From the NCBI GenBank assembly GCA_947034895.1, contig OX344763.1, forward strand, positions 75,039,093 through 75,103,092: a stretch of DNA of 64,000 nt, given 5' to 3'. Each line of letters begins with the position of its first letter. Position 1 is the stretch's first letter. The notes beneath the pieces are model-generated. The model was not told the origin of the DNA. It did no database searches and was given only the letters and a program-made list of their open reading frames with translations. This document shows positions 10,387 to 51,890 of the stretch, one piece after another. The stretch is from Rhytidiadelphus loreus. Lineage: Eukaryota > Streptophyta > Bryopsida > Hypnales > Hylocomiaceae. Both the position numbers and the translations under genes were made by a program.

Positions 10387-11500
10387 CGCCTCAACCACGG
10401 CAGTAGGACATCCAAGAGGAACGTATCCTTAGGACCATTCCCCCTGTTTGTCCAAGTGTCTGGGAGAATTACATTCTCGCTCTTGTTCATGATTTGCTTA
10501 CTTGGACTGTCGTCTATTATGATAGTATTATCCGACGTAAAATTCCCTCGTGAGCCATTGAACAAGGCACTCAAGTTCTTCAGGAAGAGGTCCTTATTTG
10601 TACCCAGCTCTTTGAAAGTAACGACCCTTCCAAAACCATCCCTGCACTTAAGAGTCGTGTAGGTGCCTTGAGCAAGTACAATTACGGGGCTCTCTAGACC
10701 ATCGAAAAGATGCTTGACTACGCATTCAGTATTGGCCATAACCATGGAGCTCCACACTGAATTAGTAGTTATCGTTCCTAATTCACAGAGGAACTGAGAA
10801 CAGTGCGGCCTCACATGAACTTCTTTTGACTCCAGAATGGTGGGATTTGTGGCCGATTGGCCCTACGAAGGATCTAGTACGTGACTATAATAGCCCTTTG
10901 ATTTCAAATCTATAGTCGCACATAAAATCCCATTCAGGTCAAGGATGACATTGAGCCACTTCTTTGTCACCCCGGACCTGGATGGAATAGTTCCCTCCCT
11001 TGATGGCTCTCCACGCAGACATGGAGGATCCGGACCCTGCTATCAAAGATACAAATGTGCAGCTAGTTACTAGCCTGCACTGACACATTTACGAACCGAA
11101 CACCAAAATACAAAATGAATGCAAAAAAAGAAAAAACAAGATGAACTTTGGCTATTGCATGGAACATGACAATCGAGATTTCGACAATTTTAATTTAAAG
11201 TTACAGAAGTAATACCTGATTAGGATTTGAGTCCCGTGACATTTTGACGACATTGAAAACCTTCACTGGAGATTGCTGAATTGCGACCTCACCGGGCATA
11301 ATCTCGGGAAAGGCTAAATCATCATTCTCAACTTCCGGTTCTACCGAGGGTAGGATTTTTGCTTCAAGGGCTGGCAACTCCGTGACTTCTTGGAGGACGT
11401 CCATAATATCATCGTGATCAACATGAAGAGCATCATGCTCTTCATTTGGATTGAGATTGGAGGAGGAAGGCACAACATCAACAGCAACTGGGCCTGCCAT
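10387..11500 (-). pseudogene. FCP1/NIF-like HAD phosphatase gene of Element 1 (truncated)
   Basis: Two exons: 11500-11216 (starts MAGPV, 95 codons, ends CAG before GTATTA) and 11039-10387 (after a TAG acceptor). Exon 2 has the HAD motif I signature as LDLNGIL, a VWSS segment and the motif IDDSP, as in C-terminal-domain phosphatases of the NLI-interacting-factor family. In classical members motif I is DxDxT/V; here the second Asp is Asn. An in-frame TAG is at 10863-10865. The 3' end is cut inside LLPWLRRL by the LTR-like sequence. The intact homolog is at 46335-47488. Confidence 0.7.
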
Positions 11501-11685
11501 TCATAATTATAGAAAATGGAAAATGTAAGAACATCTTATATTAATTCCGCAGAAAACGGAAAATACAATACAAGACATATTGATGAAAACTATGAACTTC
11601 GTCGTTCCATTCACAAAGAGTTTTCATTCACCAAAAAATAGTTTTTGTCTCTGATTTCAAAACTACACCTACGTATAATACAAAT

Positions 11686-14600
11686 CAGGTCGAGCCAACC
11701 TAAAACTACACAATTTCATTGAGTGATTATTTGGATCAACCTGCAATTTCATCTGATTCATTCGAATGGATATTTCGCTGGTCAACATTCATTGGTGATC
11801 AGTCCACAACGACATCCAAATCAACAGAGTCCAAAGGATCCACTTCAGGTGATACAATCGAGTCCCTCATTCCAGTAGCCTTGAATTCAATCTCGGGTGG
11901 TGGCGCTGGAGCGTCGGGGACAATGTCGCTCGGGGGAGACGAGGGAGGAACGTCTGGGACGAGTTCTATTGGAGGAAGCGGCGGTAGAACATCAGGCCTA
12001 ATGTCGCTCAAGGGCTGGGGCGGAGGAACGTCTGCTCTTGTAGGTGGTCATGTTGGATTTGGGTTCATCACCTTGCGTTGAGATTGACCAGCGTCAACAG
12101 CAAATGCCCCTACAACATCCAGCGGATCAGAAGATTGACTCTGGATCATCAATTGTGAAGCAGTCTACGCGGGCTCTATCGATGCCAGAGGAACTACACC
12201 ACTTATCTTGTTCATAATGGCTTCAAACTGGTTACCCGACCGCGTTGTATAATCGCAAATTAGATTTTGGAGCTGGTCTAGTCGCACATTCGTCTCCGCA
12301 TACATTGCAAGATTTGATGCCCTATCTTGAATCCTCTCTGCTCGCAACTCTGCAATTTGCGAACCGTAGTCCTCCTGGTCGAAGGCGGCCCTCCTCCGCT
12401 TCCCATGGTGCACGGGTGGCGGCGTGCTCGATGGTTGTGTCTCGACCATTTCCACGCGAACCGGTTGCCCCGACGACGTTGATGATGTTCCCACATTCTG
12501 GGAAAAATTAATGGAAGTGTAATCCTCCTCAAGCGCAAAGTCATCTGAATTGTCGTCGTCGTCGTCTAAATTGACACTCTCTCACTGCAATGGTCCAGGT
12601 TGCGATGAAGGAGTCTGTGTCAAATTCCATGCAGACTTACGCCTTCTCTTAGACAATAATGGCGTTGAAGGACCACCAGGTTTCCTACTATGGTACATCT
12701 CGTCCACGAAGTATCCCCCCGGAAGAAAATCATTCTTGTCTAATGATTTTCCTAGATTGACAATTGATGTCTAGGGATCCGACTTGTCAGATGTCCCGAC
12801 GGCATAGACAATAAGCCCTAGCATCTGCACAGGCAATTCAAATATTGGATGTTAGTAAATTGAGGATTCATGCAGTTTAGGTCATGCCGACCTAAATATC
12901 TCAAAGACTGCACACTAATTCAGATAATCAGCATGAAATTGTAGAACTCTATATCCTTGTTATTTGAATGAATCAACGTAGGAATTCAAATCACAATATG
13001 CTATCCACGCAATAATCAGGTCGACTCGACCTAAATACAACATACCATTGCAGCGCATGTGAATTTTTCCCCTGCAAACAATGACATGACAGCCCTACAG
13101 CCGATTGAGTAACGCCTAAGGATGTTTATGTAGAACTCCATGCGCAACTCAGTATTGTGGATGCGGTACTCCAACTCGTTGTATGCCCACGGCTTATTGA
13201 AGACGTCGGTGTTGGGAGCACGGTAGGCTGGTTTGGGAGGAATGATTGTTGCCTTATCTGGATATTGCAGAAAGGTCAAATACACTTTCTCGACTGCCTT
13301 GCTATTACTCGCAGAATAATCTCCCATTCGTTCATGCTTTGCTGGCACGTAGTCCGCGTAATCCATGTGGTAAGTCTTGAGGACCTCATCGCTCTGAATA
13401 TAGTACAGAGCCTGGGTTTGCTCAACCAGATCGGAGCAGATGAACAGCCAAGTCTGAATTTCATGAAGCAAGGGCTTCTTCATTTCCTGAAACGACTTCA
13501 TGACCGCAAAGAAATACGGCATCGTTGGAGTGCATTTGCTTTTGTTTAGTACAATTGGAGTGTATCGAAAATCTAATATGCCGAATTTTATTCTAGACAA
13601 AGTGCTCTCCGTCCACGCACGTACAGGCCAATTCGAGTGTTCATCCCTGTTGATGTCATATGGTCGGTAATGCGCCACCGCAATGGGTTTTACAAATGCT
13701 GCACGCTGAGCTAAGAAGACCTTGAAGAACTCTGCTGCTTAGGGTGAAATAACCTTTGTCTTCTTATTCCGTGACTTCATCTGCTTGGCCTCTTTCCAGT
13801 AGTCATCCCCCGGTTGCTCCAGAAGAACATTCATCGTCGCTCTAGTAATGGAGCGACTCTTTTTGAACTCTCTCCACTTCTAGGTGTTGAGTTCATTGAA
13901 GGTGTTCAACAAGCCCAGGTTGGGATCAATGTTGTTCAACTCCTTCTTCACGAGGTACTTCCTCTTTCGGCGCTCCACCCACTCCTTGCATGTATAACAG
14001 CTTTCCAAAACGGAGGATGCCTGTTTTATTGTCACCTTCGGGTGACTGTGCTTTCTCTTCACTCTGTCTTGGTGAAGAATGTGCTTCGCCAATTTACTCA
14101 TGTCGTCATACGAGAGGTTGCCAAACAAATTTTAATTAAAAAAAAAAAGAATTCATGCGTCAGATTTCTTGCCTCTGACTTCCACCCTGCCTTCTTATTA
14201 AATTTGACAAGAGTGTCGGGGTTAATGAGTTCGCCGTGAGCGTTACTGGAAATTACTTCCCTCCACAACGCGAATACAGGATCTAGAGCGGTTATGATTT
14301 TCAGTTCATTCCTAATCTGCAGCTTCTCCTCAGCATCCTTCCCACGGGATGCTCTCTGCGACTTGACAACATCCAACATCACGAATCGCTTGTTCATAGC
14401 CTTCACAAATTCCTGTGAACATCATACAATCACATTTAGGTCGAGTTGATCTAAATTGCTAGCATGTTCTAAAACGACATTCACATTTTATTGAAGCAGG
14501 CAGTTTGTTAGCTACCTGAAATTTTGCTTTGTTCGCTTTGTTCTCAGCATTTCTTCGAGCATTGATTGCGTTCCAATTGGGTTGGCATCCTTCGGGTTCC

Positions 14601-16600
14601 TTGGTCTTCCCATTGCCTCCCAAACAGTTCTGGCTCCCAGGATATTTGTTGACCAGGACGGCTTCATAGCTATAAAATGGTTTACTCGGTTATAGTAGGC
14701 AAAGATGGCCCTCAGTTTTGCAGTATCTTGAGACCACACCACGTAGCAATCCCACTGTCGAAAGTTTTTGACGATGGACTCGTCTAAATTCATATCCACC
14801 ATCTTCTTGCTAGCCGTCACATTGTGCTGACCATTAATTAAAAAGAACTCCCCATTTTTTATTTCCTCCCACGACTCTTTACTGGGTTTTAGTGCCTGAT
14901 TTGTTGGCATCACACATAGAGTCTGCTTTGTAGTATGATTTGGCATATGTACTAGAAAGTGCAATATGTCCATTGCCAATCGATCTTCGTGGCTTCTAAT
15001 ATTCATCTCTGTTGGCGCCGCGATCAATTGTGAAATATGGATCGACTTTTTTTCTTCTATTTCAAATATGTACGCATCAGTACATGTTGCCCAGTAGTTT
15101 TTGTACGCCTCCGCCAATTTCTTGTAATCGTATTTCCTTTTTGGATCGTGTGCCTCGGAAACATCGGTCACTTTAGAGGCGAAGCTAGGTTCTACGTTGG
15201 CGGAGGCAGCCGCATTCAGCTTTGCAACTCTTTTCGATGAACTAGACGCCAGATTGCTCTTTCTTGGCCCAGGCGGAGGTGTCGCGCTATTGAGGATTCT
15301 TCTTGTTCCTCTGCTGGATTGTGTACTGGGGGTACCCAATGAACCCTGACCTTCTCCACCTTGGCTTGGAATGTCCTGTGATACCGATCTGGGTGCCATT
15401 TCTTTTCGTTTGGACTCCAACTTTGCTGCTAGCACAGTGAAATCGGTGAACATCTTCCTCAATCTGTTACACAGTGTCTTCCCAGTGAACGTCTTCTCAG
15501 CAGTGGATCTAAAAAAGTTATCGTCAATCTTTTTCTCCAGCTCAAGAATCTCATCTCTATACTTTGTGGGCTCAAGCATAACTAAAAAGGGCGTGATGTT
15601 GAATGGAATTTTCGCGGAGTCTACAATGAATGTGAAATGGTATTGTTCTTTCTCCGGTACCCCAGACAATGCCGTCACATAGTGAATTTTTACAATGGAA
15701 CCAGTGTCTGGAGCGATATCCTTGATCTTCTCTTCAAATGAGACAGAGTAATATGGTTCACTATCGACATACGTGTAAGTGAAGCAAATCAGATTTTTCC
15801 AGGGAATCATCTTTAGACTCCAATATTGCATTTTTTCAGGGTTTTGGAACTCCCAGTATTCTCCTTCGTTGTCGATGTCATCTCCATCGTCTTCTTCTCT
15901 TTCACGTTGGGATCGCTTGAAGAAGGCTTCAAGTTTTGGCACTTGAACGTCCATACTGCACAACAAGTGAGTTGTCCAACATATTTAGGTCGAGCCGATC
16001 TAAATTTCTCCGTTCATGGATGAAGCTCTAACATTTCAGTATCCGATTGTTTCGATTATTACTGAGGACTGTTCGGGTCTATTGTTGATGCGTTTTAGGT
16101 CGAATCGACTTGATTTGTTATATTCAGAGTTCATTATTTATTTTATTATTTATATTCTTGAATTATTTTGTATTTTATCTTGGTATCTTTTTTGCGTAAA
16201 AGATTTGGTAATCTTTAAAATTCGGGATCAGGTTGAGTCGACCTAAAATGTATTAGTTTTTTTGTTTATGTAATTCAAACTTAGGCTTTGACACTGTCTT
16301 CTTTTAAATTTATTTCTCGTTTTCTAATTCATTATTTATTGAGTATCGGCCTGTTTAGGTCGACCCGGCCTAAACTGATTTCATTTCATTTAATCATAGG
16401 AAATTCTTAGTGTTGTTCTACTGCTACCATGTTGTTATTTTAGGTCGGCTCGACCTGAATTGAGTTCATCTGCAAATTTCTTCTGTGCTTAGTGACTGCT
16501 AAGTCACATCTCATTGTAGGTCGAATGACCTAAACGAACGTCTTCAATCATGGGGAACATCTGTAATCGACCTAAAAGGACAGTAGTCGACCTAAAATTA
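11686..16600. promoter_or_regulatory. Element 1 palindrome set, gene-side cluster
   Basis: Consensus TTAGGTCGANTCGACCTAA, odd-length with a free centre. Sites begin at 11686, 12876, 13017, 14435, 15984, 16094, 16227, 16354, 16439 and 16515 (degenerate), with half sites near 16566 and 16584. All lie in introns (12876 and 13017 between exons 2 and 3; 14435 between exons 1 and 2), between genes, or upstream of the exon at 15954. None lies in a coding exon. Many changes are C to T or G to A, as expected for methylated, ageing sites. Confidence 0.85.
11799..15954 (-). pseudogene. GQHS-motif gene of Element 1, three exons, heavily mutated
   Basis: Exon 1 (15954-about 14516) starts MDVQVPKLEAFF after a TTGTGCAG acceptor and holds WEEIKNGEFFLINGQHNVTASKK. 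Exon 2 starts at 14412 (EFVKAMNKRF) and ends at 13046 before GTATGT. Exon 3 runs 12824-11799. All three align with 41850-46141. Damage: a one-base frameshift near 14565 (after it the other frame reads RRNAENKANKAKFQ, matching Element 2), a frameshift with an A/T-run insertion near 14130, stops in exon 2 between 13680 and 13880, and at least four stops in exon 3. The protein would have been about as long as the Element 2 copy (1333 aa). No known domain is certain. Confidence 0.75.
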
Positions 16601-16619
16601 CGGTAAGTGACTGCACATT

Positions 16620-18290
16620 CCACTAAACGTTAGCATTTCCTAAACCCTAAAATGCACTGGCAATGAATTCAAAGTTCCTAAAAGATACAAAACTTACAAC
16701 AAGAAGTCATACCTTTCCGAGAATGGGAACACAAACGCACTTCAATCACCAAGAATGAAGAAACAATCCCAAACCCAGTACACGTACCTGCGCACATTAC
16801 ATATATGTAAACATTAAAAGACGGTTTAACAGAAACTGAAGCATGAAGTACGATTAGAAGGAACCGGGAAGTTCTGAAATAGTTAAACAAGGGAATTTTT
16901 CACATTTATAGTTCCAAAATCAATGAAATGCATAGCAGATTTTTCAATCTAACTAAACCACGAACTACAACAGGAGGTCGAATGTAACAAAAAATCGTAA
17001 ATACAAGCATAAACCACTCACACAAAACTGTGCAAGCAGTCAAACGTAGAAAACATGAAATGAGAGCAGAAACCGTAAACCCTAGATCAGCGTCATGAAA
17101 TGAAGCAATAACCAAGCATAATGAAATGAAGCAGAAACCTAGCATAATGAAATGAAGCCAAATGAAATGAAGCAGAAACCTAGCATAATGAAATGAAGCC
17201 AAATGAAATGAAGCACAAACCCTAAACCCAACGTAATGTTCAAATGAAGCAGAAACCACTGAAATTTCAACGTGGATGCAATTAACCCTAAAGCTGGGAG
17301 CACTCAAACTTTCACAAACTCTCAATACCTCCAACTGCGAGCACTCAAACATGGAGCACTTAAACATGGAGCACTCAAACTTCCGAATAACTCTAACACC
17401 TGCAGCAAGCACTGAAACATGGAGCACTGAAACTACCGAATAACTCTAACACCTGCAGCAAGCCTTGACCCTAAACCACAATGAACTCACCCTAAACCAC
17501 AATAAACCACTTGAAAGCCTCACCCTAAACCACAACGACATGAACGTAAGGGATGCATGTGAACTCACAGAACTTTCTTGTGCGCGCTCCGCAGTAGCGG
17601 CGTACTTCAGCAACAGCAGCGACCCTAAACCACTTCAACAGCAGTTGCGCGCACTCCACCAGCAGCGGCGTACTTCAGCAGTAGCGGCGGCCGACTTCAC
17701 CAACAGCACGCGTACTTCACCAGCAACGGCGACCCTAAACTACTTCAGCAGCACCCCACAATACCAGCACCCCACAATACCAGCACCCCACAACAACGAT
17801 CGCACCCCACTCCGATTCAAATGTCGAACCGAATTTCGCAGATGTTCCTCCCCTACTGATACTCGCCTCCTCCCTAGACTCGACGAATGTAGAAGCAGCG
17901 CGCTCCAAACAAACAGAATAACGCAATTCACGCACGACCAAACTTCAGCAACACCAGCATCGGATTCAAAGCCACAGCATGAGAATCACAGGCACAACAT
18001 CGGAATTTCCCGGTGCCAAACCCTAACAACAATTTCGCAGATTGTCCTCCCCGCATCCTCCCATTTCGAAACCCACCCTCTCACGAGACCCGGCCCCTCC
18101 CGAGACCCACCCTGAAACCGAGACCCGCCTCCCTCACCAGACCCGGCCCATTTCCAGACCCACCCTCTTCCGAGACCCGCCCTCCTCCCCAGACCCGACC
18201 CCTCCCGAGACCCGACCCCTTCCGAGCCCCACCTGCCTCACCAGACCCATTCCCATTCCAAAATCCACCATCTATTCGGGGATCAAAGTG
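16620..18290. other. Upstream region of Element 1 GQHS gene: telo-boxes, short repeats, C-rich tract
   Basis: Telo-box-like ACCCTAAA motifs occur near 16636, 17084, 17218, 17284 and 17466. Tandem variants of AATGAAATGAAGCAGAAACC fill 17100-17230, and a repeat built on ATGGAGCACT and AACTCTAACACCTGCAGC fills 17340-17460. At 18040-18250 the plus strand is C-rich with GAGACCCGNCCC repeats, so the sense strand for the minus-strand genes is G-rich. Long frames here follow repeat composition and are not called as genes. Confidence 0.5.
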
Positions 18291-18293
18291 GAT

Positions 18294-18487
18294 TGATCCC
18301 CTCGCTCGTCCTTACCAAGGGTGCATGTAAAAAAAAAACGTACTTTGGGCCGTTCTAGAGTATACTCTCGACCTCCCTAGACTAATTTGGGTATTTGATC
18401 GCAAAAATGAATTAAAAGTTTGCAGAAAAATTCATGTGCGAAAAAAAAAAATTACAGGGTTTGCCCGCAGGGCCGAGCAAGGGGGTC
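18294..18487. mobile_element. Short TIR element (MITE-like), copy in Element 1
   Basis: The left end TGATCCCCTCGCTCG and the right end CGAGCAAGGGGGTCA are imperfect inverted repeats. A related copy sits at 39568-40051 in Element 2 with the same internal landmarks (CCTTACCAAGGGTGCA, a TATACTC/CTTGACC-type segment, AAAAATGAATT, TTCATGTGC). Either it inserted before the two elements diverged or it is an integral part of them. Confidence 0.5.
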
Positions 18488-21400
18488 AGTTCTCCCTGGC
18501 CCTATTTGGGAAGTTTAGGAATAAGTGTTACAGTAATCATACTAGCTCATTAGTGTTGTTGTTTTTCCAATAAGAAGACTAAAAACAAACAAAAAAATAG
18601 AAAAATTAGAGATGAAATAGTGTAAAAAGTAAAATACACATCTTAGATGACATCTAGATTTTGCATCTCTTTGAAATCCATTTGCCTTTGATTGCACCAG
18701 TTTAAAAGATGAAATTGTCAAAGATGTTTTTTTAGGTTTTGTTTTCAAGCCATAGAACTCTAAAAGTTTCATAACTTGAAGGTACATCCTAAACCAAAAA
18801 TAAATTTGGAAGCGCCCAACCTTAGACACTTACTTCTTATTTGGAGACCACATGTAGATTCCCTTAAAATGAAAAAAAAAAATTAATGAAAATAACTTTG
18901 CACAAATTCATACTCATCACAATATCTTTGAAATTTTAGTACGAATTCGTACCCATCTATTAAAAAAATATGAATCTTAAATATGAATTCATACGCATTA
19001 CAACATTTTTGCAACTAAAGTATGAACCGTCCATTGAAAATTGAAATTAGGGTGCCTTACTATGAATGAAGAATATTTTGTAGTATATAAATACTTGCAG
19101 TTTCTTTATTATATAAATAAAAATAGTTTCCTTACAAGTTTTAACCACACTAAATTATGAATGTTCTATAGTATATAAATAGTTGTACTTTAGGATTACA
19201 TTTTGAATACTTTTAATTCAATCACTATTGTAATTAAGAGTCATGAATCTCTCTTAGAAAAATCTCAAATATATGTATGTATATTGAATGACTTTAATGG
19301 CTTTTAAAGTAAATTTCTTCTAGTAAAGCTACTTAATTGTTAAAGAACCCTAATTTTTTTTTCCAGGAAATGTAATTAAAGATCTCATATTGTCCTCCTA
19401 AAAATTAGAGGTAATACATGTCTTCCTCATTCATACTCTAGCACTTCATCAATAACCTTATATAGTATTTTCAAATTCCACGGTTCATATGACTCTTCCC
19501 TATTCATAATGTGCCCCTTCCTCATGTGCAAATTGTTGTGTAAAGCATATGCGAAATAGTGAAAATGGATTGCTACACTCTATATAATTTATAAGTATCT
19601 CACATTAGATTAATATTTTAATTTAGAGTATTGTAATTCAATATGATTGCGGAATGCATCCATTCGTTTAGTTGACATCATCTATCTACCTCTACGAAAA
19701 TAATAATTATCATTATAGTTCATACTGCATTATAATATAAAAAATTGGCCCACTATACAATGCAAGGATAAACAATTCAACTCCTATTGTACATTAAACA
19801 ATTCTTAGTTAGCCATTGGTTGGAAATAAACTATATCATCATTAAATAAGTATTTTAGGAAGTTTTGTTAATTACTTGGACCTACTAGCTTTTAGCTTGC
19901 AAAACAAAGAAGCACACATGATGTCATGTGTGCCCTAATTCATGAAATGTATTTTAAAGGACATAATTGATTAAAGGCATAGAAGTCACATTGAAATGCA
20001 TAGTAAAATAATTCTCAATAATTTCTTGGAATTAGAATTCCTTATAAATTTTAGAGGTTCTAGAGGTTCTATTTGAACACAATTCATTAATAATTGTAAT
20101 ACTTCTCACATTTAAAAGATCTAATTAAAGTTCAACGCATATAGAAATGTATGTGTTCTCCTTCTTTATTTACATTAATAAGAATTAGTTCAATGGTTTT
20201 AAGAATTTCAATTCATTCAATTGTTGTCAATTATAGAGAAACAAATTTCGTTGAACATTTCCATGAATTATAACTTTTGAAATTCTAAACAACTCGGCTT
20301 TTGTTTCCATGCATGTATGTAACAATTACAAGAGTTGTACTGAAGTTAAAATATCTGAAAGTATAATGAATGAAACGTGACTTGCTTTAACGTCAAGTTT
20401 ACAATGAAAGAAATAATAGTTACATGATTCTATAAATATATGCTTTTCAATAGAATAATCAAAATTTCATTGGTAAATTTCAACGTATAATGACATTGCT
20501 TAGGGTGATTTTTGTTTAGTATAAAATCTAAAATATGTGGAATGAATAAGTGAATAAATGCCTTCTTCTATGAAATGAATGTTTCCATGATCTTTGTGAC
20601 TTCGTGATATTCAAAACATGTATGAATCTTATTCCACGCATTCATACATTAATTCTATGAGTTCTAATATAAACTACATGTCAGTTTTAAAGAATACATA
20701 AAGTAAAGCGCATTAATATAAAATTTAATTGTTATAAAAGTAAGTAAGCCTTTCCCAAGAAAGTGTACAGTTATGCTTGATGATAATTGGTATAATTCCG
20801 AAAAGCAATTAGGCAGTTTGGGCATAAGTACATAACATTAATAAATCCTAAACCATCAATCATTTTCATTCATTCGTGGCTTTTTACAATGAATGCTTCA
20901 ATTGATGGCCTACTCATACTCTAAAACAAAGTAATCATTAATTATAACTATAGGATACATCATGTTTAAGACCATGATTTGTAATTACCAAATTCATTCA
21001 CTTAAGAATAATGATGAGAAATTCAAAGTCTTCTGAATGTGTCTTACATTAGTATGTTTTGCAATTATGTCCGCATGTGAAGTGCATGAATAAATAAGGT
21101 ATAATGCACCTTTCAAAAGTTAGTAGGAGCCATACAATTGCATGTCACCATTTTAGAATTTAACCTTTCAAGCTATAATTACTAAAACTTTAGTAAAAGC
21201 ACCAATGTACTACAAGTACACTGTCCCTCCGTCTAATAAGAGAAATAATTATGGATGACGCACATTCTTATTTTTTATCAAGTATTTCTTTCTAAATAAC
21301 AACATATGAATATACAAGGTACTAGGGTATATACAAATTAAAGTGGATGTTCAATGACCTTTTTTTTAACTTTGAAACTGTAATGAACACAAAAATGGAC

Positions 21401-25020: not shown

Positions 25021-25027
25021 GGAGACA

Positions 25028-25648: not shown

Positions 25649-25734
25649 AATTTCAATAACTGCTTATTTTTTAAACAAGCACATTCGGGGATTTGTCTTC
25701 TAACTATACATCACATTGTTTATGTGTAGATACT

Positions 25735-30430: not shown

Positions 30431-30431
30431 A

Positions 30432-36213: not shown

Positions 36214-36341
36214 GGTATCTGTAGATTACAATGAGTAATTATATGATTAGAATATTTAAAGTCATTTCAAGATCCACATAAAGAAGGATATCATTATATT
36301 CGATGCAACTCAATACCAACAGGACAATACAATGTAGCAAG

Positions 36342-37148: not shown

Positions 37149-37159
37149 TGTGTCAGCCA

Positions 37160-39367: not shown

Positions 39368-39567
39368 ATTGGAAGGTACTTTGAATGTTCTTGAATTGTA
39401 GGCACTTTCGAATATCTTCATTCATTGGTAGATTTTACAAAAGCGTTCATATTAGGTTTGCATTGCTTTGAGAGTGGACTAGAAGATTTTAAGGAATAGT
39501 GCATAATAGGGAAAACATTAGCAAACAAACAAGAAAAGGCGGATTGTAGGTAGGGATCAGGTACGTT

Positions 39568-40051: not shown

Positions 40052-40059
40052 GTTCTCCT

Positions 40060-40560: not shown

Positions 40561-40890
40561 GTGGTTCTTCAGGTACAAGTTTAGGTGCGGCTTGCTTGCG
40601 TCGTTCTAGAGAATTGTGTGCTTGCTGCTGCAGAAGTTGAGGTGCGGCTTGCCTGAATTCTGTGCTTGGTTGCTTGAATTCTGTGCTTATTGCTATAGAA
40701 GTTGAGGTGCGGCTTGCTTGCTTGCATTGTGTGCTCGCTGCTGTAGTAGTTGCAGGTTTAGGAATCAGATTTTGTGTATGGAAATTCTGGCGCGTTTTCT
40801 TTTTTCTTTTTTCCTTTACAGTTCTAGTTTCTTATTCTCTATTGACTATGCAATGTATGTTTTTGATTACGTAGCACCTGCACTCTCAAC

Positions 40891-41100
40891 TTTAGGGTAT
40901 TTAGGGTATGCACAACTTTAGGGTATGCACAATCAGGGTTTCTTTAGGGTTTAGGGTTTAGCCCAGGGTTTGGTTAGGGTATCCTAGGGTTACCCTATGA
41001 CTTAGGGTTCACCGTAGGAGTTGCAGAGGGTATTGCAGGTTATTTTTAGGGTTAGGTCAGAATCCACAGTTTACGTGAGCTAGGGTTTAGGGTTTAATGT
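40891..41100. promoter_or_regulatory. TTTAGGG / telo-box cluster
   Basis: TTTAGGG or TTAGGGT units recur at least ten times without forming a regular telomere array. They lie upstream of the GQHS gene. Telo-boxes (AAACCCTAA) are known plant promoter elements. Similar ACCCTAAA units lie in the matching place in Element 1 (16636-17560). Confidence 0.55.
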
Positions 41101-41258
41101 TTTTGTTCTACGTTTGCTGAAATAAAGAACCCTAATCCAGTAAGAAATGTAATAAAAATTTAATACGCACACCAAAGTCTAGTCGATCCAACCCATCAGA
41201 ATGAAACTCGAACTCGAAACATCCAAGCACCATAGAAGCCGCATCAACAGCAGCTGCA

Positions 41259-41788
41259 GATCAGCTCGACTCGAGCTGATCTGCATTACATACGACAGGT
41301 GCAACATGTACAGATCAGCTCGAGTCGAGCTGATTTGCAGCCACGCATCTAAATCCTTTGACGAACGTTCGTTTGACGACTCCAACGATATGAAATATGA
41401 AAGCTATACGCAAATTGCTAGAGAGCCTAAGAAAGAGAAGCCCCATGCTAATCAGCTCGAGTCGAGCTGGTCCGTCGACAGTAAGAAGTTACCAGCAAGA
41501 ACTATCAGTCAAACAAATTATCTATGGGGGATTGCGTGATAACCAACAAAATATGCCACGAGTACAAAATTGCATCTATTAAATACAGACAATATAGAAA
41601 TCAAGTAAATAAGATTAAATCCATCAAATACCAGGCTTGTCTGTAAATCGGCTTGACTCGAGCTAATCCATCAACAGTCTACGAATGGAAGTCATGTCGT
41701 CGAAGACCAACCATAAGAATATCATTAACCGAACGCCTCATGTGAAACATGTTGATTCAAAATGTAAATCAGCTCGACTCGAGCTGAT
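41259..41788. promoter_or_regulatory. Element 2 palindrome set, GQHS promoter/leader cluster
   Basis: Sites at 41259-41281 (C), 41314-41334 (G), 41451-41471 (G, one arm base changed), 41647-41667 (C, three changes) and 41768-41788 (C). All lie upstream of the coding exon at 41850, which follows a CTTTGCAG acceptor, so they may be in a leader intron. Further sites: 43310-43330 and 43398-43418 (intron 1), 44875-44895 (intron 2), 46166-46184 (before the FCP1-like gene) and 47566-47584 (before the small gene). Confidence 0.9.
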
Positions 41789-41849
41789 TAGTATCATACT
41801 GAACATAGGACTGTGTGTTAACAAACTTACTGGATGCATTCTTTGCAGA

Positions 41850-44800
41850 ATGGAAGACCAACTAGAGAGCCTCAACATGTACTTCAGGAAGACCGAAGTT
41901 CAATTCCCTGAGGAGCGTCAAGATGATGACGAAATGCTCATTGAAGGAGAATACTGGGAATTCAAAGAGCCAGAGAGAGTGGAAGCCTGGAGTTTGTTTA
42001 TGGTGCCATTCACGAACCTCATAGCCTTCACATACAAATTCAAAAACGCACAAGTATTCATTCAGCTGTCTTTTGAAGAGAAAGTGAAGGACGTCGAAGT
42101 AGATGCGCACCCGCTTATAAAAGTGAAATGTGTCACTGCGAAACGCGAAATCCCAAATGCAGAGCAATACCACTTCACAATCTGCATTGACTCCCTTCTG
42201 ATTCCGTTCAGCATGACACCGTTCCTCAGAAGCCTAGAACCTACACCGTATAGTGAGGAAGTCAAAGAGCTCGAGAAAAAAATAGACAAGAAGGAATATC
42301 AGAACCTAAACAGGACTTCCCTCAATGGAAAGCGACTGTGTTCCAAGATTCGGTCGCTATTCAACGACTTCAACACTCTGAAGGGGAAGCTCGAAATGCA
42401 GACTGTAATGAACCAGCCAAGGTCTGTATCGATGGACCTAGTGAGCGGAGGAGGCAGTCAAGGTTCCCGAAGGCAAGCAACACAAGCTTCTGTTGGAGGT
42501 CGAGGAAAGAGAAAATCCTTAGTTCAAAGTACACCACCGGCGCGGAAGGTTGGGAAGAAAAGCGACGCTTCTCCATCAACAAGAAAACCTATTCAGAAGG
42601 TGTCTGAAGAGTCAGGCCTTCTTGAAGGAAGCTATGTTGAGGAAATGTTTAATGTTCCTCACTCCCGAGCAACAGACAAGAGGCCGGACTACAAGCTTGT
42701 CAGCGAAGCCTACAAGCGCTTTTGGACAACCTGTGAAGACGCTTACATCTTCAAGGTTGACGAAAAGAAAGAGATTCCTATCGAGCAATTGATGGGAGCC
42801 CCTTCAACCTTCAACATTCGGTCAAAGGAGGACAGACTTGTCGAGGACATGGTCAATTACCTGGCCAATATCCCTGATAAGTCAACCAAGCAGACTCTCT
42901 GCGTGATGCTAGTGGGCTTCTGCGTGAAACCGAAGAAGTGGGATGATATAAAGGAAGGAAAATTTTATATCATTAACGGTCAGCATAGTGTGGATGCCAG
43001 CAAGATAATCGTGGCTGAGGGCAGTGATTTCAGTGAAGATATAAAAAAGCATTTCCGGAAATGGAATCGTTTTATAGTATGGTCAAGTGATGCAGAGAAA
43101 TTACGCAGCATTTCAGCCTACTATAATCGAGTGAACCACTTCGTGGCCGTGCAACCGTCATGGGCAACCAACATTTTGGGTGCTCGTACCGTATGGCAAG
43201 AAATGGGCTGTCCGAGAAATCCACTACAAGCACAGTCGGTGGGGACTGTCACAACATCGAGACGAACCGTAGAGAATACGAGGAATGCCACTAAATTCCA
43301 TGTAAGTAAATCAGCTCGAGTCGAGCTGATCTGCTATTGAGCTGATCTATACACCTTGTTTAATATGATATTAGACTTCAGTACAGAAGGGCTGACAATC
43401 AGCTCGAATCGAGCTAATCCGCATCCTCTGACCTCCTGTTTTTTCATTGCAGGAATTTGAGAAAGCGGTGTATATTCGGTTCTCCATGATCGACGTGAAT
43501 AAGAGCTTGAAGATGACCCAGAAGAAGGATCGAGAAGAGAAATTGAAGCTTACAAACGAGCTGAAATTGATAACGGCTCCTGAGGAGGTGTATAAGCTCT
43601 GGAGCGATGTTATAACCAATGCAGCGCATGGTGAGCTCGTAAACGCCGATACGTTGAAGAAGTTCAACGCAAGATCGGATTGGAATCCTGAGAACTGTAT
43701 GCTAACGCGTGAGTTCTTCAAGTTCCTCGGGAATTTAAGTTATGAGGAACTCGGAAAGCTTGCAAACCACATTCTCAACCAATCAGGAGTGAAGCACAAG
43801 CTTCCGTATCCTAAAGTAACTATCAAGGCAATTACATCAGTCCTTGAAAGTTGCTACACAACTAAAGAGTGGGCGGAGCGACGTAAACGTAAGCATCTGG
43901 TGAAGAAAGAGTTGCACACCATCAATCCCAACCTTGGTCTCCTCAACGCACGCAACGAAGTTATAGTTGACAATTGGAAGAGATTCAAGAGAGAAAGGTG
44001 CATCACAAAGGCTACGATGGATGTCCTCCTCGACCGTCCTGGAGAAGCATACTTTGCTCAGGCGAAGCTTGTGAGGTCCAAGAACAAGACCTGTGCGGAG
44101 CTCTCACAACAAGCGTTTGAGTTCTTCAAGGTCTTCCTGGACCACTGGTCGAAATTTGTCAAGCCTACTGCAGCTGGACAATACTGGACGTACAACACGA
44201 ATAACAATACACACTCTGATTGGATGACGTACGCCTGGTCGTCGGATACCCCGAGGAGAATGTCTCTCGGATTGATTGATTTCCGAAACCTTCCCGGGAT
44301 TGAGAAGAAGGACAAGTCAACTGTCGACAATCCTTTTTTTGTGGAGGTGATCACATCAATGTTCCAGAAGAGCCAGCCAGGACTTGACGATGTGCCGGCG
44401 TGGTTGTTCATCTGCGCGGATGAGAAGGAACAAGCGCAGGTATTGAACTTCGTGGAGTCGAACGAAGTCTTCATTGATTACAATGTTGACTTCTCCGTAT
44501 ACAGCGCTGGGAAGAATGACCGCTTGTGCGATGTAGCTGCGTCGAAGACGCCCAAGAAGGTGTTGCTCATGTTTTTGCAGAAAACAAGCAACATCAATCC
44601 AGTGGTAATCCCTGAAGTGTTCGAGTGCCCTGAGACTGCACGGTACCAAAAGGCGAGGGCCTACGGCGAGCTGGAATACCGTATTTACAACACGGAGCTG
44701 CGAATGGAATTCTATCTCTGGCTCATCAGGAAGTTCAGCAACCCGGGAATGTGTGTGTTCTCGGGATTTACAGGAGGGAAATTCACATGTGCAGCAATGG

Positions 44801-46141
44801 TAAGCACCATTATACTAAATCTGTTTATAATGAGTTCAAGTAAATCCTGTTCATGATTGCATGTCACATGTATGATTAGCTCGACTCGAGCTGATCTATC
44901 TGACGGAATTTCGATTGAAATGTCGTTGTGGCCTGCAGATGAGTTGTGTTGATATGTACGCTTCTGGTCCAGCGGAACTGGCACCTTGGTGGCAGGATAT
45001 ATGCACAAAGGCGCTCAGTTTGGACAAGTCGGATTTCCTCGATTCTGGTTACCAGGTGCAGTCAGCAATCGTGGCTCCCGGATCTTCGACCCCGTCATCT
45101 TCGAGGCGAATTCTCAGATCCAGTCAAGGGTCTCCTGGGAATCAGTTCAGAAGGAACGCACCAGCAGTCGTTGCCGATGTTGAAGACTTATCATCGGATG
45201 ATGCGATACATGAAGACGATGTTGGAGACTGTGAGTTGATGGAAGAAGAAAGACTGGATGATATGCTGACGCCCACAAGTCGGCCGCTTGCGGACGTTCC
45301 TAGATCATCTGGTTCGTCGATGCTCCCCCCAGCTTCGCATACTCCATCTGGGCAGCCGCTCCAGATGAAGAAGCGGGATACCATGAGCAGTGTCATGAAG
45401 CAGATGGCCGACATGAATCAGAGAAATGCAGATGCCATTGCGCAAATGCGGGAGCAGAACGAGATATCGCAGAAGAATACAGAACTCGCTCTTGCAACAT
45501 TGCGTGCGGAACAGGCTCAGGAACGCCAACTGAACATGGAGATGCACAGGAGCACACAGGCATGGATGGAGCGGGAGTCTCAACAGAACAGGGATTTCTT
45601 CCAGGCGCTGTTGAACAGAAATTCGGTTACACCGATTGCATCTATTGCCCCGTCCGGGACGTCACAGCAGTTGCTTCTGGTGGGCCAGCCATCAGCCTCA
45701 ACGAACAGCGGTGCATCTAGCCACATTGAGCCAATTATGCAATCTCCGCCCTTACCTGCCGGAGCACCAATCTCACCACCTCTCCCCCCTGCGCCAGATC
45801 ATGTAGTAGAACCATCTCCGCCAGTTGAGATGAATGTTCCAGATTCCGTTAACCCGGAAGGTGGAGAGGATGTTCCGGATTCCGAAGATCCGGAAGGTGG
45901 AGAGGATGTTCCAGATTCCGAAGATGCGGAAGCTGAAGAGGATGTTCCAGATTCCAATGATCCGGAAGGTGGAGACGATGAATTAGATGTCGAAGACCCG
46001 CAAGGTGGCCAGGAGCTACCGTTGTCCACGTTGGCGGAAGTGATCGTGGTTGGGCACAACCTGACCGTGGATGCTTCCATTGTGGAAGTTGGAAGTGGCT
46101 CCCAACCCACCGATGCACCATCACCAGGTTGTGCCCAATGA
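41850..46141 (+). CDS. GQHS-motif protein of Element 2, three exons, about 1333 aa
   Basis: Exons 41850-43301 (484 codons, ends CAT/GTAAGT), 43453-44799 (449 codons, after CATTGCAG, ends ATG/GTAAGC) and 44939-46141 (401 codons with stop, after CCTGCAG). All joins are phase 0 and no stop interrupts it. Exon 1 has EGEYWEFKEPERVEAWS, SFEEKVKD and FYIINGQHSVDASK (near residue 375), which resembles the DGQHR/ParB-like motif; this is a weak, by-eye match. Exon 2 is unknown and basic in its middle (WAERRKRKHLVKKEL). Exon 3 has a Q/M-rich helix and an acidic repeat, four copies of VPDSEDPEGGED-type. The splice sites hold in Element 1. Possibly a DNA-binding accessory protein; function unproven. Confidence 0.8.
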
Positions 46142-46334
46142 TCACTTGTTCCTTGTTTTGTAGTTTCAGCTCGACTCGAGCTGATTTGAATGATTTAGCG
46201 GAAGTTGTACATTTCTATAGATATAGAGTTTTCATATAGTTCAGTAGATTTGGACTCACTTTTGTATTCTGAAACTCATTTAAAGAGCATGTAATATATG
46301 ACTTTCTCACGGACAGTTACTTCTTCAATATGTA

Positions 46335-47488
46335 ATGGCAGGCCCCCTCCGTGCTGAAAATGTGAATATTGTTTGTCAATCTTCATGCCTTCCATCTTAT
46401 ATGCAAGCCCCATTGGATGAACCCACCATCCATGTCATCCCAGAACCTACTCTGCGTTCGAATGAACTTATCGTCGGAGCTTCTGCATTGCATACAGCAC
46501 CTACCACACTTGTAGACGCGCATGAACCTTCGGGTTCCTCGGGGAGGAAGGTACTATATTCTTCTACGTTATCATGAGATGTTACGATATGTAGGGTGGT
46601 GTCGTTGGTAGTGGACTTCTTGATTGTTTTCACGCGATGTCCGCTCTGAGCGAGTTTCCTGAATGTAACTGGATACGCTATTCGTCCGTTTCTCAACAGA
46701 AATGCGGTTTAAACGTAGGAACATCTGAGGCCGTTCATCGTCCATTGAGGTCCGGGGTGGCAGAGAAGTGGATCAACATCGTTCTGGACCTCAATGGGAT
46801 TCTATGTGTAGCCGAAGATTGGAAGTCCAAGGGTCCGGTGGCACGATTCAATCACCATTCTATGCCGCACTCATCGACCGCTGCTGCGATTGTTGGGCCG
46901 AAGGCGGTGTACGTCCGCCCAAATTGCTCCACGTTCCTAGTTGAGTTGCAGAAGATTGCGTTTGTTTCCGTGTGGAGCTCCATGAAGAAATCCACCGCCG
47001 ATGAGATTGCCAAGTACCTATTCAGGGACGGAGAAATGCCCGTTCTCGTTTTGAGGCAAGACTCCTGTAAAATAATTAAGTGCAGAGATAGGGCCGGGAG
47101 GTTGACATCCTATAAAGAACCGGGAACTGATAAGGACTTGTTCCTAAAAAATATGGAGTACCTCCTCTCTCGCTTGCGTGGCCGGTTCACATGTGACAAT
47201 ATGGTCATTGTGGACGACAGCCCTCGTAAACAAATCATGAACAGGCCGGAGAATGTAATACTTCCGGATTCGTGGTCATACCGGGGGAATGGGGACAAGG
47301 ATTCATTTCTACTAAATGTCCTACTGCCCTGGTTTAGGCGATTGCATGTCAATCGCAACGTCGGGCTCAAATCGTTTCGGTCAAATGGTCCGGGGAGAAT
47401 CGGGCGTAGAATGCTCTGCGAAGAGAGGGTGCGCCGAGAGTACGACAAGCTTATGGAGGTAGTTCGCGGATCGGCTAGCGTTAGTTAG
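46335..47488 (+). CDS. FCP1/NIF-like HAD phosphatase of Element 2, two exons
   Basis: Exon 1 46335-46550 (72 codons, starts MAGPLRAEN) and exon 2 46700-47488 (after TCAACAG), phase 0, 334 aa in total. Exon 2 carries VLDLNGILCV (HAD motif I; the second Asp of DxD is Asn), VRPNCSTFLVEL, VWSS (motif II region), KDLFLKN and VIVDDSPRKQ (motif III/IV), then LPDSWSYRGNGDKDSFLLNVLLPW, as in NLI-interacting-factor/FCP1-type phosphatases. The first, nucleophilic Asp is kept but the acid-base Asp is replaced, in both element copies. Catalysis is therefore doubtful and a binding role possible. A palindrome at 46166 lies just upstream. Confidence 0.78.
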
Positions 47489-47710
47489 CGGTGCACCTAG
47501 AGGTATGTAGTTCGAGTCGCGTCGCGTTGAGTGGTCATTTTTTTTATTCCATATAGAATTCCGTTTCAGCTCGAGTCGAGCTGATTTGTAGCTTCACATG
47601 TCTTTTTATCATTTGTGGAGTTTCTTTGATGCTACCAATAAATGTTACTTCCATATTTGATGAGGACGGTTATACTGTAATTTTACTAATTTACCCTTGT
47701 TGGTTTCCAG

Positions 47711-48340
47711 ATGGACAGCACATTCCGCGCTCCGGTTGGTCACCTTCAATGCCAAGTGTCGGCCGACTCTATTTTCGACTACGGGCAATATGTAATCCTC
47801 AGTACTGGGAACTTCTTGTGCTCTGCTCCCACTGTAAATTCCTCAATGGACTTCTCTGTCTTGCCCGTTGATGACGGGGTGGTGGACAGTCCTCCTGATC
47901 GGAAGCCACGCTTTCCGGTGTCTTGTTCACCATCGCCGCTGCGCTCAAGGAACCGCAAGGATTTTTCACAGTGCCCATCGGGATTAGATAGATTGACGCA
48001 AAGAAGGCTTTACGAAGACGCCAATTACCAAATGACTACCCCGGTGGTGGACGTGCAAGTCCCAATTCAAGCATGTGAAGAAGACGTGAAGCTGGCGGTT
48101 ATTCCACCCTTACCTACTCGGCGCCGTGTATCATCTTCGATGGGTAGAGTGAAGAGGAAATATGATGGGCCTTCGAGCAGTCAATGCTCAACTCCATCAT
48201 GGGATTCCTGGGAGCGACGGTCCTTGAGGGCACAACGGCTGGAACATATCCGCGAGGGTGGGAAAATTGCAAAAGGATATAGTCGTGGACCTGAAATTCT
48301 CAAGGCCATGGAGAAGATGAAGAGTAAATCGCTCCAGTAG
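47711..48340 (+). CDS. Small basic Ser/Pro-rich protein of Element 2
   Basis: 209 aa from ATG 47711, which follows a TTTCCAG acceptor, so a leader intron is likely. A palindrome lies at 47566, within that presumed intron or promoter. The protein is rich in S, P and R, with short basic patches (RTRRRVSSSMGRVKRKYD, SWERRSLRAQRLEHIREGGK) and no recognised domain. It is a candidate nuclear protein. Element 1 has lost the matching region. It may be spliced to upstream exons I cannot see. Confidence 0.55.
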   Translation: MDSTFRAPVGHLQCQVSADSIFDYGQYVILSTGNFLCSAPTVNSSMDFSVLPVDDGVVDSPPDRKPRFPVSCSPSPLRSRNRKDFSQCPSGLDRLTQRRLYEDANYQMTTPVVDVQVPIQACEEDVKLAVIPPLPTRRRVSSSMGRVKRKYDGPSSSQCSTPSWDSWERRSLRAQRLEHIREGGKIAKGYSRGPEILKAMEKMKSKSLQ

Positions 48341-48573
48341 TAGTTCCCTATGATAAATGTATATTCTAGAATAGACACAGTCAAGTGTCTTTAAATAGTT
48401 CATAGTTTTCACGCACTTACGTAGTTGGGACATATATCTAGAGTGTAAATGATGTAGGTAGCGACAATCCTCCTAACATAAAAGACACGATGCCTAGAGA
48501 TTGTATCGGTGCCATTCGATGCAACATGTTCAATTTTGACAGATCCGGTAGTCTAGGTTCCTTGTTTTCTTTG

Positions 48574-48893
48574 GTTGTGATGGCCTTGTGAGTAGGAGTT
48601 CCAAACAATGAGATCGCGGATATAGGAGAAGGAACTGGACGATGGTCTCCGACGTACATCTAAGCACTAGAACTGTACAGACTTAAACATCTAGGCGTCG
48701 CTCTTTAGAGCTCCATGAGCGGGCAATCCAAATTACCATGCGTGAAATTGCCGTTCGAGGAACTCCGGAGTGGCGCCTTCATGTTTTCGGTTCTAGGATT
48801 TGATTGCTTACATCTATGTCGGGGACCATCGTCCAGTTCCTTCTCCTATAACCATGGCCCCGTCGTTTGAAGCTTCTACTCACAAGGCCAACA
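48574..48893. repeat. Long inverted repeat near the right end of Element 2
   Basis: Arms of about 88 bp, 48574-48662 and 48806-48893, pair imperfectly. The best blocks are GGCCTTGTGAGTAG and GGAGAAGGAACTGGACGATGG. The loop is about 140 bp. It could fold into a long hairpin in RNA or be a foldback insertion. Confidence 0.7.
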
Positions 48894-49116
48894 CAGTTGG
48901 AGACGATGAGGTCCTTCATATGAGGCATCACTAGTATATGTAGTTGTACATAGCAAGTGCATATGACACTTCGGTACTTAGAGTTTCAAGCTGTGTTGGA
49001 GACTTTGTAGAAAGGATCTTGGATAGAGAGCATCTAATGATTGTAAATGTGATGTAGGCCTTCAAATGAGTTAGTTCTATAGTGAAGGCGAACTGTAGGA
49101 AGCATAAATAGGAGAA

Positions 49117-49235
49117 TCCATACAAACAATTGCCGGCATGGTCATTGAGAATGACGCTCACTCCTTGCGCTGCACACAACGCAATGTTTGAGGGTCACTC
49201 TCAATCGTCATGTCAGGCAATTGTTTCTATGGAAT
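49117..49235. repeat. Compact hairpin near the right end of Element 2
   Basis: Arms at about 49117-49165 and 49186-49235 pair with few mismatches (CCATA.AAACAATTGCC.G.CATG, then ATTGAGA.TGAC), with a 20-30 nt loop. The size and pairing resemble a plant small-RNA precursor, but nothing shows it is processed. Confidence 0.6.
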
Positions 49236-51890
49236 CTTGTATTTTTGCTTCTTTCGATTTGCCTCTGCTATGAAATTAGTTGATTTGGAGACCTTCCTTT
49301 CTACTTTATGATGTCTGTGGATGCCGTAGCGGGTCAGTGCATGTATTTTGACAAGGAAAGTGTATACATCCTATAAATTTGTGGATTCAATGATCATATA
49401 ATATATAGGAGTTATTATATATGCTTCCACTTTCTAAATATAGCACTTCAATATGTGTTTTAGGGGTCATTGTATTGCTGATTTACTTATATTTAATACT
49501 GACTTCTCTTAAGTTTATGATTTCTAGTGATTGCCAAGCTCTCATTTCACTAGAAATCTCCCATTTTAATGAATATAGTGTTGTAACAAACATCGGAAGA
49601 GGTTACATGTACTTCGAAACCCCGAAAAACTGGCATTTAGGGGCTGGAATGACGTGCCAGAACCGTGGAGTTTCGAAACTTGCATCACTTACATAGAATG
49701 GTGCCACATTGACAAGGCCTTCCCTGAAGAGCGACATAACTACCACCGCCGATTTCATAAAGCAAATTTGAAACACTACATCGATGAGGCCTTTAAACAA
49801 AGATGCATCGAAGTATACCAAGTGTTATACGAAAAACCCACTGTGAAAAAGAATGAAATTCACCTTTTCATTGCACGAGGTGTACATGCGGAGGTGAGAT
49901 TGAACAAGCGGGTGGATTGGTCCACTTTGAAGGGCACGCCAACCACAGCAGATGGTATCAAGATACCAACACCAACAAATGGAATGATTCCAAGGGGGGT
50001 TATGAGATATCCCGAAGGAGGGCTGGGCAGGGTCAACACACGTATTGAGCCGCCTAACACATACGAGACGGCGGATTCTACTACTGACGATGACTCTGAT
50101 GGATCTCATGTTGTGGTGGAATTAACCCCTAGAGGACAACAACGTGCACAAAGGAGAAGGGCGCAACATGCACCTCGTGAACAACTTCCAGAACCAAATA
50201 TTCGTGTACAGGTCCAGGGCCCCGTTGAACCAGTACTTGGAGTTGCTCAGGCGCAATTCCAAGCACCTGATGAACCAACTCTTGGAGTTGTTGATGTCAT
50301 GGCTGCTGCAGACACCATACAAAGCTTGAGGGTGCAGTTACAAGACCGAGGTGATGAACTACATTCTCTATATGAAAATGTGGGCAAGTTACGAGAAGAC
50401 ATTACGCTCAAAGACAGAGTAATTGCTCAACAAGCACGTGACATAGAGGAGCTTTGGCAAGCTCTACAAGCAGCACAAATGATGAACGAAGGTCAAGATC
50501 CACGAGGACATGCACAAGGACCTCCTCGGGATTCTCAAATTCCGAGGCAAAATGCTCCAGGTGATGCTGCCATGTCTACACAAGAAGATTCATTGGCCTT
50601 TCCCGAAATAATTGCCACTGGCAACGTACCAATGCAGACTGAAGTTCGGGGCATGGGTATGGACAACAACCTTGAGCTCAACAACTTGCGAGGCGAAAAT
50701 CAAACATTACAAAATCGTTTGCATGCCTTGGTGGAGCAGTACTACCAGTGGAAGTTGGCATGCATGTTCACCGTTGACAAGACACGACAACTAGTAGCAG
50801 AGTTCAAGAAATTGGACCACTACTACAGTGAGCACAATCAAGAAAGGGTGTTTGGCTTGACTTCATGGGCCCTTGTGGATGATCTTTTCAGTCCCAACAT
50901 GGCAATCATTGAGCTTGATGGTGGAAAAACAATCATTGATTGGTCCAAACACAATTGGGATTTCAAAAACCAACTTGGGTCGAAGGTCGACTACAAAGGG
51001 AACCCATTGTTGGAGTGGCCAAATCCTTCAAGTTTTGTGCACGACGGGACCACATGTCCCATTTGTATGAATCCATTTGGCCCTGAAGGTGGAATGCAGT
51101 TGGGCACGTGCAACCATGTATACCACCCATTTTGCCTCATCAGTTTTATGATTGTTCGTCGTCGGTGCGCAATGTGCAAGGCTCCCTTCCACGAGCGCTT
51201 GTACGAGTTGTTTGGCTTGGTCCCATACATGCCACCACATTGGGAATACAATGCCACGAATGCCCCAGATCACCGTAGAATGTGGGGAACAGACTTAGTG
51301 TGGAGTTGGAAATTACAAATGACATCGTTGGACAAGACACAAGTCGTTGCTGAATGTGGTTGGGAGACTGACCCCGATCAAATTGTCCAAGTCTGCCACC
51401 ATTTGATTCCGATGAAAGACAAGCATAGCCAAGGACGGCAGAATTTTTTCTTTCAATGCTTCAATAGACATTGGGACGAGGTTGGACTCAAGTTTCAATT
51501 TGGACCTCACCCTCGGCGATGGTTATGGGGCGTTGATGGAGTTCGAGTCACCGATGACAATGGAATTCGTATTGGGGAGGACTTGGACATGCCCGCCCCG
51601 CGGAGCTTGCTCAATTATCGGAATCTGAGTGGAGGGAAACTTTCAGAAACGAAGGGCTGGATTTTTTGCTTGAACAACATAGCCCAGATACACGCCGAGC
51701 TCTGGAGAGTCTCAAGCAATCACAAATCATGAGGGCCATTCTAGAAGAAGACGGACCAGCAAGGAGAACTCGGTCTGCAGTTCGTAGACTTCAACTAGGC
51801 TCCAACGAAGATTTTCCAATGCAACACGGCGCACACGACGACAAGGCTGGACCTAGTGGCACTACAAACAGTCCAATGAACATCGACTGA

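Follow-up and report, generated by a model that had tools for sequence, protein, structure and literature searches.

Moss transposon families with private palindromic sites and a candidate ParB/methyltransferase-like protein that may read them

Why would two related transposons each carry a private version of one palindromic site? This question is raised by a 64,000-nucleotide stretch of the moss Rhytidiadelphus loreus (G000:C3:75039093-75103092, on contig OX344763.1 of assembly GCA_947034895.1; the window hereafter), which holds Element 1 (E1) and Element 2 (E2), and for which an initial annotation had proposed a dimeric, element-encoded DNA-binding protein that co-evolves with its sites. Using the window and the 407 Mb genome searched (489 contigs), we found that the sites fall into discrete arm classes that follow the lineage of the elements carrying them, and that the elements encode a protein with predicted ParB/sulfiredoxin and adenine-methyltransferase folds which could be the binder. 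The simplest account would be a dimeric, two-domain, element-encoded DNA reader matched to its own sites, with anti-silencing or autoregulation as its effect.

Private site classes and element lineage

At ≤3 mismatches the type 1 palindrome (TTAGGTCGANTCGACCTAA) gave 18 matches in the window, 15 in E1 and the other three being E2's own sites (0 expected in shuffles), and the type 2 palindrome (TCAGCTCGANTCGAGCTGA) likewise gave 18, with 15 in E2 and the other three being E1 sites (0.02 expected). The earlier counts of about 17 sites in E1 and 14 in E2 thus become 15 and 15 at this threshold, while the confinement of each type to its own element was upheld, since the cross-matches are the other element's own sites and the TCGANTCGA cores in the window all (19/19) lie inside the two elements (0.66 expected). 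E1 sites are more degenerate than those of E2, with 2/15 and 9/15 being exact, respectively. As had also been claimed, sites avoid coding exons: 0/30 overlap an assigned exon, a result that was unaltered when exon borders were refined by a few bases, and for E2, which is 49% coding, the chance of 0/15 sites in coding sequence is 4e-5.

TnpA of Spm/En, one of the parallels drawn initially, is an element-encoded binder with many private subterminal sites, no more than a few hundred bp from the element ends. The moss palindromes could likewise be sites that a transposase binds for cutting and pasting, and they do resemble TnpA sites in being family-specific, within elements and many per element; however, the nearest site lies 3,763 bp from the left and 1,998 bp from the right end of E2, and the sites stand by genes, not at the ends. 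These distances weaken the Spm parallel and led us to reject subterminal transposase sites, an unlikely explanation overall.

The site core reads TYAG-XX-CGA-N-TCG-XX-CTRA, flanked on the outside by a weaker CA (GCA in most classes). As these weaker symmetric bases extend outward, the full palindrome measures about 27-29 bp and the 19-mer first noted forms its core. Expressed as shares among distinct half-sites (CT 183, CG 108, GT 57 and extended 10, classes being named here by the dinucleotide XX or by their extension), C/A at -4/-3 is found in all four classes (CT 0.73/0.54, CG 0.81/0.57, GT 0.56/0.58, extended 0.80/0.90), G at -5 in three (CT 0.66, CG 0.46, extended 0.90), and position -1 is mostly occupied by A in CT and by T in the other classes. 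The two site types stand as described, but the difference ascribed to outer arms around a common core comes mainly from a dinucleotide that varies within a palindrome somewhat longer than first noted.

Genome-wide, the framework TYAGNNCGANTCGNNCTRA occurs at 922 places and its reversed control at 0. Same-arm classes account for 506 (CT), 133 (CG), 107 (GT) and 1 (AT) of these, with all controls at 0, while the remaining 175 places have unlike arms or another XX. An extended class, GCANTTCAGGTNGNNNCNACCTGAANTGC or near it, is present in copies L051-L054 and has 110 exact places genome-wide (control 0). The arm classes are discrete. The CG class is absent from the window and was first met in copy L034, then in 7/20 further copies chosen for diversity and in the mixed copy L042. 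Copy L047 has an 81-bp tandem array carrying sites, and elsewhere four GT-class palindromes stand at an exact 82-bp spacing (G000:C3:15814302-15814566), a sign of tandem site expansion in that copy. The core TCGANTCGA alone was tried as a genome marker and discarded as too short, with 9,131 matches vs 3,554 for the reversed pattern.

Arm class was then set against element lineage in 51 copies (E1, E2 and L006-L054, with L005 left out as the window's own copy), scanned for the framework at ≤2 mismatches. The majority class was CT, CG or GT in 46/51 (L042 being a CG/CT tie), extended or related in four labelled by eye (L051-L054), and none in one (L027); the copies with no framework site numbered 3/51 (L027, L053 and L054). 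The tree, built by a quick method with a midpoint root and taking one gene per copy for most copies, held 45/51 copies, as six near-identical E2 copies (L007, L008, L010-L013) were dropped, and L027 fell outside the label count. On this tree the class labels required 5 changes, where the minimum is 4 and the shuffled mean 17.8, with 0/200 shuffles as low, which supports the expectation that arm type tracks element lineage. By XX, GT is found in the E1 clade and in L051/L052. GT differs from CT by one base, as does CT from CG, and a stepwise path between the classes GT, CT and CG may be read from the midpoint-rooted tree. L040 and L042 have CG/CT mixed half-sites in 5/10 of their sites, possibly a specificity change under way. 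The gene-proximal position of the sites would also suit a host transcription factor or chromatin protein that the element merely exploits, yet three strict classes and an extended one follow element lineage within one genome, which a single host factor would not yield, and we regard this explanation as improbable.

Proximity of sites to copies was assessed on one contig, C1, along which the list of CT sites reaches to 75.4 Mb (50 of the 506 are listed). There, 71/87 exact sites among the matches listed have a listed copy no more than 20 kb away, while such surroundings make up 0.88% of C1; the copy list is partial, resting on the scored ParB-like candidates (78 of 1104 and 87 of 1069), 55 DUF7869 candidates of 2146, and the copy in L059. 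A single class was present at 15/16 copy places, one of which rests on a lone CT site with a copy of another class 18 kb away, and the sixteenth has four CT and one CG. Exact CT, CG and GT sites are absent, among those listed, from five entries (three places); extended-class sites were read by eye at two of the three, and for the third the nearest listed one is 26 kb off. The sites are therefore not common in unrelated regions, as far as tested.

Identities between copies (arms/flanks/centre) carry an upward bias, as sites were found in one copy, with the centre base as an internal control of small counts. In the three most diverged comparisons, with flanks ~50% identical, arms were 77-93% identical (E1-L037 0.87/0.53/0.20; E2-L016 0.93/0.50/0.33; L044-L047 0.77/0.47/0.67). 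The arm-flank contrast is less marked among closer relatives; the other groups gave 0.91/0.68/0.60 (GT group), 0.88/0.81/0.64 (CT sub2), 0.98/0.93/1.00 (E2 group), 0.89/0.78/0.20 (L034-L041), 0.96/0.62/0.80 (L046-L050) and 0.94/0.75/1.00 (L051-L052). This conservation of arms above flanks bears on whether the sites are spread copies of a functionless mini-repeat, as the tandem units of about 81-82 bp in some copies might suggest. No tandem array overlaps the sites in the window, and within one element the 30-bp flanks of different sites are alike at close to the background level (0.32 and 0.35 vs about 0.29-0.30), so no larger repeat underlies the sites; with flanks this unlike, mini-repeat spread was rejected as the least credible of the explanations.

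Conserved arms could also form RNA hairpins in introns and leaders, serving splicing or small-RNA production. An 8-bp stem closed by a triloop could form, and some sites fall just after 5' splice sites, the first intron palindrome of the E2 candidate binder gene beginning at intron base 10; this apparently holds in relatives too, where arm types were read from translated read-through, not DNA (28 matches in 27/152 proteins, some surely chance). However, among 285 sites, reduced to 220 with different surroundings, broken pairs in the sense strand were A:C in 122 and G:U in 92, so that A:C is at least as frequent, which disfavours the hairpin and makes it very improbable.

The candidate binder and its likely role

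The candidate binder of E2 (the GQHS protein) is encoded by a single frame through three exons with clear splice signals, exon 1 ending in CAT directly before GTAAGT at 43301. Structure prediction places a ParB N-terminal (CTPase) fold in the exon 1 product, along with a weakly PH-like N-terminal domain, and an adenine-methyltransferase fold in the same gene, which lends structural support to this protein among the candidate binders that had been put forward. The tail exon is 26% identical between E1 and E2. The catalytic motifs of beta-class N6-adenine DNA methyltransferases are DPPY and FxGxG; here the DPPY position reads D(F/L)R in most rows and the S-adenosylmethionine (SAM) loop has a lysine in 29/32, so the domain, as modelled, lacks the catalytic motif and is probably disabled. 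Pfam gave no match for the two halves of the window proteins, and among family members only weak ones (Tugs, best 0.00036, in 8/44; N6_N4_Mtase, 0.029, in 1/44; DUF6551, 0.063, in 1/46), with no ParB model among 46 members scanned at E ≤ 0.1. Likewise, PDB sequence searches of three proteins gave no match. The named relatives listed for the element proteins come from two mosses, Physcomitrium patens and Ceratodon purpureus.

We favour, at a probability of about 0.5, the reading that this ParB/methyltransferase-like protein, with its putatively inactive methyltransferase-fold domain and variable tail, is a dimeric binder of the palindromes and controls the element that encodes it, VANC-like anti-silencing being the most likely mode. 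Its symmetric dimer would bind about 15 dispersed palindromes of about 27-29 bp, some located in the leader and introns of the gene for the protein itself and others upstream of the gene for the presumed transposase, with family specificity set by XX together with the base at -1. In each family this protein probably reads the family's own palindrome, so that each family controls only itself; protein and sites would change together through GT, CT and CG, one base per step. Once bound, the protein would mark the non-coding DNA of the element as its own, and the most likely purpose would be to keep host silencing off the element, as VANC does for VANDAL elements. Private symmetric sites that change with lineage partly support the dimeric, co-evolving binder first proposed, with the ParB/methyltransferase-like protein as its putative identity.

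Several observations weigh against this reading. All genes of one element are linked, therefore lineage tracking cannot single out the binder, and the DUF7869 protein, the FCP1-like protein or another open reading frame (ORF) could fill the role. The nucleotide-binding arginine motif of ParB is of the GERR type, while here the nucleotide-contacting arginine is replaced (NGQHS, with serine in 39/42 rows), and the methyltransferase fold is matched to a moderate degree (Foldseek best E 1.6e-3, with rows within 1 Z tied). On the side of the sites, no listed copy is close to 16 of the 87 exact sites listed for C1, the GT class lacks the outer G at -5 (0.18), the extended class does not retain the central GANTC, and the centre base is not consistently freer than the arms (L046-L050, L051-L052 and the E2 group, on small numbers).

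The same or another element protein may instead bind the palindromes as an autoregulator, repressing or activating the presumed transposase and its own gene and so limiting or timing activity, with no anti-silencing role. Sites do cluster in two divergent leaders and in introns of the candidate binder gene, and KorB, a relative of ParB, is a transcriptional repressor. Other sites lie past downstream exons (46166, 47566), far from the leaders, however, and private divergence per lineage would fit an arms race more readily than plain repression, and we consider autoregulation alone possible but doubtful.

The elements and their surroundings

E1 and E2 are mirror-image relatives by tblastn within the window (Table 1). 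Their annotation as two related transposons stands, with the correction that they are mutually inverted and have the bounds given here. The left end of E2 is common to two other copies and its right end to one other, with 4-bp target duplications of GTAA for E2 and GAAG for a copy on contig C2. E1 has an inverted repeat at its right end (29352-29376); its other end was not found, 10383 being the last homologous base and not a proven end. In E2 the DUF7869 gene runs leftward, and the ParB-like, methyltransferase-like, tail and FCP1-like ORFs run rightward (41.8-47.5 kb), while the corresponding E1 genes (10.4-16.0 kb and 25.7-28.6 kb) are arranged in the opposite sense.

The DUF7869 match of E2 (143.2 bits vs a curated cut-off of 26) is the sole Pfam match at E ≤ 0.5 in its 821-aa protein, which is 77% identical to that of E1 over 821 aa and 61% in the N-terminal part. 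Neither Mutator-like element (MULE) models nor ParA gave a match among 20 ORFs scanned with Pfam. The FCP1/NIF phosphatase-like gene is present in both elements (E1 copy 10383-10985), its products being 55% identical, and the DLN in place of DxD in E2 may mean weakened catalysis.

E2 interrupts a coding exon of a RING-like gene (32548-32578 and 49583-51732), and its joined flanks give an open frame resembling a RING-like paralogue of the window; RING models score below the Pfam cut-off on this gene, which has paralogues at 5118-7643 and, in part, 2004-3350. Two related kinase-like genes are at 30432-32099, in the gap between E1 and E2, and 62226-63170, and a separate hAT-type transposase (DUF659 and Dimer_Tnp_hAT) at 56055-58862. 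Between its divergent genes, mid-E2, a 177-bp unit is repeated 5.4 times (38410-39360), and a 128-bp inverted repeat pair lies close to the right end (48576-48895). Short similar blocks between the divergent genes of E1 and E2 (18293-18500 and 39566-40063) are in direct orientation despite the inverted elements and are probably another repeat.

Table 1. Positions in the window of the two elements, their genes and their palindromic sites
Feature	Position	Strand	Remark
E1	10383..29376	.	mirror-image relative of E2
GT-class palindromes (nine), E1 introns, 3' gap and leader	11685..16458 (11685, 12877, 13016, 14436, 15985, 16095, 16228, 16355, 16440)	.	
E1 methyltransferase-like exon	13034..14415	-	48% and 55% identical to that of E2, in two pieces
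E1 ParB-like exon	14515..15975	-	45% identical to that of E2
GT-class palindromes (six), upstream of E1 DUF7869 gene	25029..25647 (25029, 25125, 25208, 25355, 25527, 25629)	.	
E1 protein with DUF7869 domain	25729..28572	+	
E2, complete DNA transposon	32579..49582	.	17,004 bp; ends common to other copies
E2 left terminal inverted repeat	32579..32603	+	25 bp, AACACTATATTCATTAAAATGGGAG; preceded by target duplication GTAA
E2 protein with DUF7869 domain (PF25273), presumed transposase	33376..36225	-	Pfam 9.7e-42
CT-class palindromes (five), upstream of E2 DUF7869 gene	36342..37146 (36342, 36662, 36861, 37013, 37128)	.	
CT-class palindromes (five), leader of E2 ParB-like gene	41261..41787 (41261, 41315, 41452, 41648, 41769)	.	
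E2 candidate binder, exon 1: predicted ParB/sulfiredoxin fold (model residues about 302-439)	41850..43301	+	start codon inferred from homologues
CT-class palindromes (two), intron between ParB-like and methyltransferase-like exons	43311..43417	.	
E2 candidate binder, exon 2: predicted beta-class N6-adenine DNA methyltransferase fold without DPPY	43453..44799	+	
CT-class palindrome, intron between exons 2 and 3	44876..44894	.	
E2 candidate binder, exon 3: fast-evolving, repeat-containing tail	44939..46141	+	frame open from exon 2 to stop
CT-class palindrome directly past exon 3 stop codon	46166..46184	.	
E2 FCP1/NIF phosphatase-like ORF	46595..47488	+	DxD motif reads DLN; Pfam NIF 2.2e-15
CT-class palindrome past E2 FCP1-like ORF	47566..47584	.	
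E2 right terminal inverted repeat	49558..49582	-	identical to left; followed by GTAA

Known systems and what the elements may mean

The VANDAL transposase VANA is MULE-type. As excerpted from PMC5735166, VANC/VANDAL in Arabidopsis shares with the moss elements family-specific short motifs, many per element, enriched in own copies and mainly non-coding, as well as related families with diverged motifs and tandem expansion in some copies; VANDAL21 anti-silencing is covered in the excerpts of PMC5735166 and PMC10398659. In contrast, the VANC21 motif is of 9 bp, non-palindromic and held in one orientation via tandem repeats (PMC5735166, same excerpt), whereas the moss sites are symmetric, far longer and mostly dispersed, tandem one-orientation arrays being absent from the window although L047 has its array. 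The candidate binder is ParB/methyltransferase-like and no MULE domain was matched here. The initial VANC parallel therefore holds for the private non-coding motifs but not for transposase or motif form and arrangement, and because VANC21 motifs differ in this way the moss elements may be said to work like VANDAL, by analogy, rather than to be members of it.

ParB, KorB and Noc, acting on parS-type palindromes, differ in that here the triphosphate-contacting arginine motif is altered, no ParA was matched in the ORFs scanned, the host is eukaryotic and there are several sites per gene. A more tentative proposal is nonetheless a eukaryotic ParB/parS-like chromatin system, in which a protein with a ParB domain and a methyltransferase domain converted to DNA reading would nucleate on palindromes, spread or bridge along its own element and hold off silencing, with new families arising via one-base site shifts (GT, CT, CG) through mixed half-sites such as those of L040 and L042.

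ParB fused to an N6/N4 DNA methyltransferase is reported as enriched in phages (PMC12704722), and Bce_0392 is an example of such a fusion (PMC5512222, in excerpt). These fusions likewise combine the same two folds within a single mobile-element gene, but here this is a eukaryotic transposon and DPPY is missing. The PMC12704722 survey, which searched eukaryote proteomes with Pfam and TIGR models, gives sulfiredoxin as the commonest eukaryotic member. In the open-licence PMC literature we found no paper naming DUF7869, none describing such transposon sites or protein, and nothing relevant on moss or Physcomitrella with ParB, methyltransferase or new transposons, PMC3671162 too proving unrelated.

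If the protein binds its sites, the moss elements would be a second, independently built case of self-recognition in plant transposons, one that uses another protein and a symmetric site. It would place a ParB/methyltransferase protein, phage-enriched according to the excerpted PMC12704722, in eukaryotic transposons, with at least four site classes in one genome, and would offer a natural series of protein-site pairs, mixed intermediates included, for how a binder and its many dispersed sites shift specificity together.

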